Source: Fischerella sp. PCC 9605
GTDB lineage: Bacteria > Cyanobacteriota > Cyanobacteriia > Cyanobacteriales > Nostocaceae
Direction: 5' to 3'
Assembly (NCBI RefSeq): GCF_000517105.1
Contig: NZ_KI912148.1
Span: 1,358,518-1,422,517, forward strand
Length of the DNA: 64,000 nt
The translations under genes and the position numbers were made by a program. Below are positions 27,159 to 39,460 of the stretch, one piece after another. Below the pieces are notes generated by a model. The model worked only from the letters and a program-made list of their open reading frames with translations, was not told the DNA's origin and did no database searches. The first letter of the stretch is position 1. Every line of letters starts with the position of its first letter.

Positions 27159-28681
<1,523 letters not shown>

Positions 28682-36858: not shown

Positions 36859-39309
36859 ATGCGTATTTCTCTTAAATGGCTGCGGGAACTAGTCGAGGTC
36901 AAACTTAGCCCGGAAGATTTAGCAGAAACCCTGACGATGGCGGGGTTTGAAGTAGAAGATATTGAAGATCGCCGCACTTGGGCAGATGGTGTTGTGATTG
37001 GGAGAGTGCTTGAGCGGCAACCCCACCCCAATGCTGATAAATTAAGTGTTTGTCAAGTTGATATCGGTACAGGAGAAACTCTAAATATCGTTTGCGGTGC
37101 TGCCAATGTCCGCGCTGATATTTATGTGCCAGTTGCAACAGTAGGTACTTACTTACCAAATATCAATTTAAAGATTAAACCTGCAAAACTGCGCGGTGTC
37201 CCGTCGAACGGCATGATTTGTTCTCTAAAAGAACTGGGTTTGCCTAGCGATGTAGACGGGATTCATATCTTTACCCAGGAAAATCTCCAACTGGGTAGCG
37301 ATGTGCGATCGCTGTTGGGTTTAGATGATGTAATTTTAGATGTGACTGCGACTGCTAACCGCGCTGATGCCTTGAGTATGGTAGGTATAGCGCGGGAAGT
37401 CGCAGCCCTGACAGGCGCAAAACTAACTATTCCCGAACCTGATGAGGTGTCGGTTCCCCAAGGGGCGGGAAATTTAGCGATTAAAGTAGCCGATACACAA
37501 GCTTGCCCTGCTTATATTGGTACGGTAATTGAACAGGTAAAAATTGCACCCTCTCCTGATTGGTTGCAACAGCGCTTGCGAGCCGCAGGAGTGCGACCAA
37601 TAAATAATGTAGTAGATATTACTAACTATGTATTGTTGGAATGGGGACAGCCGCTACACGCCTTCGATCGCGATCGCCTCAAATCAATTGCTGGTGTAGA
37701 GACGCGCCATGGCGCGTCTCTACACATCGGCGTTCGCTTTGCCAACGCGGGAGAAACCCTGAAAACCCTAGACGGACAAACTCGCACTCTCTCTATCCAA
37801 AACCTACTCATCACCGCCAACGATAAACCCGTTGCTCTCGCAGGAGTGATGGGAGGCGAAGAAACCGAAGTCCATGAAGGTACGCAAAACCTTGTATTAG
37901 AAGCAGCATTATTTGATTCCGTTGCCATTCGCCGTTCTTCTCGGAGTGTGGGGTTAAGAAGTGAGTCTTCTGCTCGCTACGAACGCGGTATAAACAGCGC
38001 TGGGTTGGAAATAGCCACACGCCGCGCCTTAAACTTAATTACCGAACTCGCTCAGGGAAATCTTGTCACTCAGGAAATTAGCGATACTCGTCCCGATCCA
38101 TCCACTTGGACACGTTCGATAGAACTACGTTTAGAGCGAGTTAATCAAGTGTTGGGGCCTGTTGATTTGGGAGAAAAAACCGGAGAACTGCAAGCTGAAG
38201 ATGTAGAACGCATCTTAACGGCATTAGGATGTCAGCTTACTTCTTTAGACGAAGGCAAGTGGATGGTGACAGTACCGCCCTACCGTTACCGCGACTTAGA
38301 ACGGGAAATAGATTTAGTTGAAGAAATTGCCCGTCTCTACGGCTACGATAATTTCTGCGACACCCTACCCGAAAAGTCAGGAGCAGGTTATTTACCTTTT
38401 GATGTAGAAATGCTCCGGAAGTTGCGAACTGCTTTCCGGGCAGAAGGTTTGACAGAATTAATGCACTACTCCCTAGTCAAGCCTGGGGAAGACAGACAGA
38501 TAGCGCTAGCAAATCCGTTATTTGTAGAATATTCCGCTCTGCGAACTGATTTGATATCCGGGTTGATAGACGCTTTTGTGTACAACTTAGAACAAGGCAA
38601 TGGCCCCCTCAACGGTTTTGAAATTGGGCGAATTTTCTGGCAGGAAGAAAACGGCTTGCAAGAAGCGGATGCCATAGCTGGAATTATGGGGGGCGATCGC
38701 ACCTCCAGCAAGTGGACAAGGAGCGGACGCGAACAGCCCATGACTTGGTTTGAAGCCAAGGGTTTGTTAGAAAGCGTATTTCAGCAAATGGGCTTGCAAG
38801 TAGAATATCAACCCGATCGCCGTGATGAACGCTTGCATCCAGGACGTACTGCTTCGTTGTGGATCGGAGGAAACAGACTAGGTATCTTTGGGCAACTGCA
38901 TCCCCAACTACGGCACGAAAGAGGTTTACCAGAAGCAGTTTACCTGTTTCAACTGCATCTGGATGTACTGTTGGACGCACTGGATCAAGATGAAATCGTC
39001 GTACCGACATTTAAACCTTATTCCACCTATCCAGCTACTGACAGAGACATCGCCTTTTTCGCACCCGTGAAAGTGACAGTTGCCGAAATAGAAAAAGCAA
39101 TTAACAACGCAGGCAAAAATTTACTAGAGTCTGTGGAATTGTTTGATGAATATCGCGGCGAACATGTACCGCCAGGACAGCGGAGTTTGGCATTCCGCTT
39201 AATCTATCGGGCCAGCGATCGCACTCTTACCGATGCAGAAGTTGAACCAGTACATCAAAAAGTTCGCGATACACTAGTCGAAAAATTTGGTGTTGCCTTG
39301 AGAAGTTAA
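36859..39309 (+). CDS. pheT: Phenylalanyl-tRNA synthetase beta subunit with repeat-derived insertion
   Basis: 816 residues from the ATG at 36859 ([11 protein letters not shown]); upstream in-frame codons from 36811 are not expected. Domain order is normal: EMAP-like tRNA-binding ([19 protein letters not shown]), B3/B4, B5, catalytic-like core and C-terminal anticodon-binding domain ([17 protein letters not shown]). A 30-bp perfect palindrome lies at 37695-37724 in the B3/B4 region, adding [10 protein letters not shown] between [14 protein letters not shown] and [17 protein letters not shown], where homologues continue without it. The frame is kept, so the enzyme is presumably functional and tolerates the loop. 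pheS is not in the window. Confidence 0.97.
37695..37724. repeat. 30-bp perfect palindrome inside pheT
   Basis: Identical in all 30 bases to 28365-28394 (half-site TGTAGAGACGCGCCA). Its length of 30 adds ten codons without a stop or frameshift. Confidence 0.97.
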
Positions 39310-39460
39310 TAGTAGTTGGTTGTTGGTTGTTGGTGAGCCAGCGCGGTCTTGGGGGTTCCCCCCATGAGCGACTGGCGAACCCGGAGGGTTGTTGGTTGTT
39401 GGTTATTTGGAAATTATCAGTAACATCCAAACAACTAAGAACCACCAACAAACAACAAAA
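39308..39460. repeat. STRR hairpin module with nested G/C-rich element
   Basis: A T/G arm (TTGTTGG units) is interrupted at about 39333-39388 by a hairpin-forming element (GCCAGCGC...GGGGGTTCCCCC...GCGACTGGC). The T/G units then resume. A complementary CAACAAC/CCACCAAC arm follows at about 39427-39460. Confidence 0.85.

Follow-up and report, generated by a model that had tools for sequence, protein, structure and literature searches.

A 30-bp palindromic repeat lies in frame in pheT and other protein genes of filamentous cyanobacteria

The best-known protein-coding palindromic elements are those of the obligate intracellular Rickettsia. In cyanobacteria, the small dispersed repeats (SDRs) of Nostoc are reportedly 21–27 nt long, show compensatory changes and are said to be embedded in heptamer repeats and mini-transposons; we know of no account of SDRs inside protein genes. 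Copies of another cyanobacterial palindrome, HIP1, are far more numerous than those of the repeat described here. The length of the Rickettsia palindromic elements (RPEs) is given as about 150 bp in a passage of a 2024 MITE review (PMC10969869). GTAG-tagged REP elements GTAG-12, GTAG-15 and GTAG-16 have been described in cyanobacteria, and some REPs of other bacteria are intragenic, many of them in DNA repair genes, according to sections of another work (Di Nocera, 2013; PMC3733652). Among the matches listed for translated palindromic repeats in cyanobacteria, we found only REP, MITE, HIP or unrelated work, and those listed for the arm sequence of our repeat were likewise unrelated. The peptide VETRHGA was not found in the open-access literature, where Di Nocera (2013) was also the sole match for protein-coding palindromic elements combined with insertion in Nostoc; most subscription papers lie outside the scope of both searches.

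The analyzed window (a 64,000-nucleotide stretch of Fischerella sp. PCC 9605 DNA) contains two exact copies of the perfect 30-bp palindrome TGTAGAGACGCGCCATGGCGCGTCTCTACA, at positions 28365–28394 and 37695–37724, as the initial annotation of this DNA had reported; in shuffled sequence, this 30-mer was neither expected nor observed (0 in both cases). The second copy is within pheT (36859–39309, + strand), which encodes the 816-aa phenylalanine--tRNA ligase beta subunit (TIGR00472 pheT_bact, 807 bits). It is in frame, and its ten codons, which correspond to PheT residues 280–289, are read through with the ORF intact, as had been claimed. The perfect palindrome extends here to 32 bp (37694–37725), the outer pair being a chance match, and the stretch could form a strong RNA hairpin (z −6.3). 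The first copy is flanked by plausible genes and is indeed intergenic; a minus-strand ORF across it (27980–28414), which shares sequence with a longer ORF, is probably spurious. This copy is inside a MITE-like dispersed repeat, TAATACCGATTT...AAAATGGTATTA, of which the window holds the right half (28395–28435, or 28365–28435 with the palindrome). Five full-length copies of the MITE-like repeat elsewhere in the genome (L002, L006, L008, L010, and L017) have the exact palindrome at this internal position, as does a related repeat in Scytonema NIES-4073 (G057, L288). Directly 3' of pheT are tandem TTGGTTG-type repeats (39314–39400), which are broken by another segment.

The two copies belong to a family in which constant 10-bp arms, TGTAGAGACG and CGTCTCTACA, surround a variable and mostly self-complementary 10-bp core (TGTAGAGACG-N10-CGTCTCTACA). 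The source genome (8.08 Mb in 12 contigs) is the sole genome of its genus in the compared set. It has 116 places within three mismatches of the 28-bp core of the palindrome, compared to 0 for the reversed control, so the description of the palindrome as a dispersed repeat holds; the exact 30-mer was found at 26 genome places among the matches listed. A census of 1.2 Mb of the 8.08 Mb identified 52 distinct copies when the spacing was relaxed. Of these, 48 had a 10-bp core, and all five core pairs were present in 37 of the 48, which points to compensatory variation of the self-complementary core. The commonest cores were TGCCATGGCA (n = 17), CGAAATTTCG (n = 10), and CGCCATGGCG (n = 8). Heptamer-like flanks were found around some copies (e.g., ACCAAT...ACAACCAC), and a crude motif test for such flanks marked 4 of the 48. 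When 156 genomes of the phylum were surveyed for the exact form with a central CATG, it was found in 27, which included 20 of 22 members of the same family (counting the source genome), 4 of 33 other members of the order, 0 of 14 other members of the class and 3 of 87 other members of the phylum. The last three (G528, G540, and G545) are small genomes of a distant family, f50, and have one or two exact copies each, for which contamination is possible. Another palindrome, TGTAGAAGCAATTCATGAATTGCTTCTACA, is found at G000:C6:695764 and 798738 of the source genome, where it is 30 and 28 bp long; it has the TGTAGA end in common with the family described here, differs in the rest and is probably a sister family.

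The repeat is not confined to pheT among protein genes. A strict caller, which required an open frame of at least 100 codons and a coding score on both sides, placed 9 of the 52 copies of the 1.2-Mb census in frame in coding-scored ORFs; a search for further in-frame copies, which the initial annotation had proposed, was thus positive. The palindrome has two open frames, VETxxxxSLQ and CRDxxxxVST. Eight of the nine intragenic copies are in the frame VETxxxxSL, in YifB/ComM, MetH, CbiE/T, RecJ, DndD, PheT and, twice, in an acyltransferase, and one is in the frame CRDxxxxVS. The NCBIfam matches were above cut-off for YifB/ComM, MetH, CbiE/CbiT, RecJ, DndD, and PheT and below it for a ribokinase-like kinase with a copy; the acyltransferase-like protein with two copies had no NCBIfam match, and we take it to be PlsC-like. 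In-frame copies were also found in mutL, sufD and one further gene of related genomes. The 17 exact-copy loci listed represent 16 distinct copies (two loci being the same copy). A rule slightly more permissive than the strict one placed 7 of these 16 within genes; each of the 7 uses the VET frame, and 3 of them were already among the strict nine. Given these open frames, the palindrome is predicted to be translated in its host genes. DNA-related functions recur among the invaded genes: yifB/comM, recJ, and dndD (G000:C6 406239, 962633, and 1058535) and, in relatives, mutL (L289). The RecJ of the source genome (G000:C6:961463–963598) also holds NNQQPTTNNQQP, which resembles a tandem repeat of the heptamer type that is translated.

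It should be noted that the strict caller is insensitive, with 647 of 3000 random positions accepted; its 9 of 52 copies show no clear difference from these positions. By a looser rule, 15 of 52 copies were in genes vs. 1884 of 3000 random positions (p = 8.6e-7), i.e., copies were rarer in genes than chance; some of the 15 are weak, e.g., the one at C6:472299, with three mismatches. Depletion of copies in genes is therefore caller-dependent, and exclusion of copies from genes is rejected.

To place the pheT copy among its relatives, 111 PheT sites were compared (the window plus 110 loci, cross-collection duplicates included), which represented 92 distinct proteins. The ten-residue form was found in 8 of the 92, and the insert is thus not general in cyanobacterial PheT, in line with the initial annotation. 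An exact ten-residue gap had been predicted for the relatives; instead, nearly all have five other residues at this position. Empty PheT proteins mostly carry five residues, such as SEKLA or SENLT; in a few, the sequence is shorter by one residue or a further five are missing. Because the relatives carry five other residues, the 30 bp stand in place of 15 bp, with a net gain of five codons. The statement that the palindrome adds ten residues to PheT is thus right for the residues encoded and wrong for the gain, as ten residues replace five. In the three solved PheT sequences listed by a structure search, a gap was aligned at the insert position. Two structure models, by which the surface loop predicted in the initial annotation was to be judged, were of low confidence (mean pLDDT of 48 and 44) and were set aside.

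Besides the window, the PheT carriers are Tolypothrix campylonemoides (VETYHGTSLQ, a perfect palindrome with a different core), three Rhizonema and one uncultured Scytonema, in which the insert is half decayed, and two MAGs with strongly decayed inserts, which were assigned by position and weak similarity. In the clade of these six Rhizonema, Scytonema and MAG carriers, G044 has a shorter remnant at the site and a further copy, VDTFHETSLQ, in a different PheT loop. The tree requires 4 changes, at least 2 of which are forced by well-supported branches. Alignment and tree together place filled pheT sites in separate lineages, namely the window, T. campylonemoides and the Rhizonema-containing clade. 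In T. campylonemoides pheT is filled, while both near sisters are empty; compared with the empty Scytonema NIES-4073, DNA identity is 98% over 300 bp on each side, and the nearest 60 bp are identical apart from two base changes directly upstream of the insert (L024 vs. L029). The pheT flanks of the window are like those of Hapalosiphonaceae and unlike those of the other carriers. A search of 388 genomes of the order, a set that left out T. campylonemoides, with a pattern of insert plus PheT flank found at pheT only the window and one Rhizonema-type copy among the matches listed. Separate acquisitions at the same spot would mean that a tiny repeat keeps reshaping the loops of conserved proteins.

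The size of the change was measured as the number of residues between conserved anchors in filled and empty relatives. The numbers were 20 filled vs. 15 empty for PheT in both lineages (+5 and +5), 14 vs. 8 for sufD, 20 vs. 14 for the ribokinase-like kinase, 18 vs. 12 for acyltransferase site 2 and 13 vs. 8 for an unnamed gene of T. campylonemoides (G088). At the older mutL site they were 21 vs. 13–15 (+6 or +8), and metH gained three to six residues as judged by eye. A gain of ten residues, as expected if the palindrome had been inserted exactly, was found in 0 of these 8 comparisons, and +5 or +6 codons was the gain in each of the six whose anchors are clear and whose history is short. Empty relatives were found for pheT, sufD, mutL, the kinase and acyltransferase site 2. 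At recJ (12 of 12), yifB/comM (12 of 12), dndD (5 of 5), and cbiE/T (2 of 2), all relatives compared carry a segment almost equal in length, which ranges from a decayed copy to native-looking sequence; as none of these relatives is clearly empty, entry cannot be claimed at these four genes. Family copies at acyltransferase site 1 are also found in Scytonema NIES-4073 and T. campylonemoides. Segments that resemble copies occur at three places in sufD of NIES-4073, which is a fragment and scores below the NCBIfam cut-off; the third place is empty in 6 of 6 relatives. When the flanks of 19 sites were searched in three sister genomes, the sites were mostly filled, rearranged or matched on one side; clearly empty sites were obtained for sufD and one further gene, and differing cores for mutL. 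In 200 kb each of T. campylonemoides and Scytonema NIES-4073, pheT was the sole case.

The mutL copy of NIES-4073 is perfect and has the core CGCCATGGCG. In its two sisters, identity is ~94% across the 60-bp flanks, and the arms agree at 19/20 and 17/20 positions, while the core matches at just 4/10 and 2/10, being of the TTGCATGCAA kind in both. Since TTGCATGCAA-like cores are also found in mutL of G011 and G110, which are of another genus, the core of NIES-4073 looks newer. An intergenic pair (L296/L337) has one conserved flank (upstream, 57/60) and a core match of 4/10. By alignment, cores thus differ between orthologous copies with conserved flanks, and existing copies may have been overwritten by other members of the family. 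Core exchange is not general, as the core was kept in four other filled-filled pairs (10/10, 10/10, 9/10, and 8/10); these counts leave out L281/L308, which were misaligned, and L285/L334, which differ in length.

We suggest that the palindrome is probably a mobile repeat, non-autonomous and very small, of filamentous cyanobacteria that is copied into new sites, survives in genes and replaces target sequence. The palindrome would be copied into new genomic sites, and its two open frames would allow some of the copies that enter a tolerant loop in frame to persist within genes. New copies would replace ~12–15 bp of the target, without clean transposition and target duplication, possibly by patch-like copying, gene conversion or template switching, and old copies would be overwritten by other family members. 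The translated loop would mostly be tolerated rather than functional. Replacement is suggested by only six or so clean filled/empty cases, and secondary deletion could mimic it. A general target duplication was not found, with equal 4-bp flanks in 4 of 48 copies, and these four share one common context, GACTC/GAGTC. Recognition of a similar target sequence by the arms was convincing by eye and failed the within-ORF control (7 entries in 4 genes, p = 0.27–0.88). It is conceivable, though we hold it rather doubtful, that a 30-bp sequence without a protein product of its own spreads by rewriting host DNA in place, by replacing short pieces of the target, entering identical codons of an essential gene in separate lineages and overwriting its decayed copies with new cores. 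If so, conserved proteins would carry standing sites at which the peptide is repeatedly renewed.

Clean insertion by a transposase of the REP/RAYT or IS200/IS605-like type, with surplus codons deleted afterwards under selection for loop length, could draw on the 13 Y1 transposase (Y1_Tnp) matches of the source genome, which may be RAYT or IS200, and would agree with the variable length of the older mutL and metH sites. We consider it unlikely, given that the T. campylonemoides insert already has a net length of +15 bp where the flanks share 98% identity with those of its empty sister, that the short-history comparisons are so uniform, that target duplication is not general and that a palindrome copy was within just 1 of 5 transposase loci examined. 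Inserts begin and end at the identical base relative to the frame in all pheT lineages, and members of the Rhizonema clade have their decayed copies by common descent, as would be expected from a single old pheT insertion that was lost in most lineages, or from a short pheT patch spread by gene transfer. This history is nevertheless improbable: T. campylonemoides has empty sisters whose flanks are nearly identical to its own, the pheT flanks of the window resemble those of Hapalosiphonaceae and not those of other carriers, the perfect palindromes in pheT have different cores, and a transferred patch would need to be shorter than ~60 bp.

At recJ, the same-length segment of relatives is already arm-like (12–18 of 20 matches) and a near-palindrome is found in the source genome, as would follow if hairpin-templated (quasipalindrome) mutation had turned native sequence into palindromes in situ. 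Such an origin is very improbable for a 30-mer found exactly at so many genome places and for a pheT whose length changes by 15 bp; for pheT in particular, the identical dispersed copies already refute it. Identical repeats can also mislead assembly, but an assembly artifact is scarcely credible for a unit of just 30 bp in an intact pheT frame, at a site that is filled, with other cores, in independently assembled genomes.

These results confirm that the in-frame palindromic repeat is real and more general than the single pheT case, as it also affects genes that serve DNA repair, iron-sulfur assembly and the synthesis of cofactors besides translation. Its recurrence at one site, its presence in other genes and its changed cores go beyond the initial annotation. 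With one site entered separately and cores that differ in sisters, the spread of tiny repeats becomes directly testable with close strain pairs. The repeat resembles what is said of the SDRs in its very small size, its occurrence in the same group of organisms, its compensatory self-complementary core and its MITE-like hosts, and differs in the length of the palindrome, which is 30 bp here. HIP1 (GCGATCGC; Elhai, 2015; PMC4390886) is also an over-represented palindrome of cyanobacteria, but it has eight bases and a different sequence. As portrayed in sections of Di Nocera (2013), the GTAG REPs are also small palindromes that start with GTAG; they have GTAG at one end, whereas the repeat described here is palindromic from end to end with a GTAG + CTAC pair at both ends. 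The copies in recJ, mutL, dndD, and yifB/comM parallel the intragenic REPs that the same sections mention in repair genes of other bacteria. Overlap with GTAG-12, GTAG-15, or GTAG-16 is possible, as the two were set apart by these REP descriptions. The likeness to the Rickettsia elements that the initial annotation had drawn is well founded: RPEs are also dispersed palindromic repeats that lie in frame in many unrelated genes, including here genes of conserved proteins, with the frame open in both orientations. Likened by description, the present repeat differs from RPEs in that it is found in free-living cyanobacteria and seems to replace target bases, and at 30 bp it is a far shorter protein-coding palindromic element, now in cyanobacteria with large genomes.
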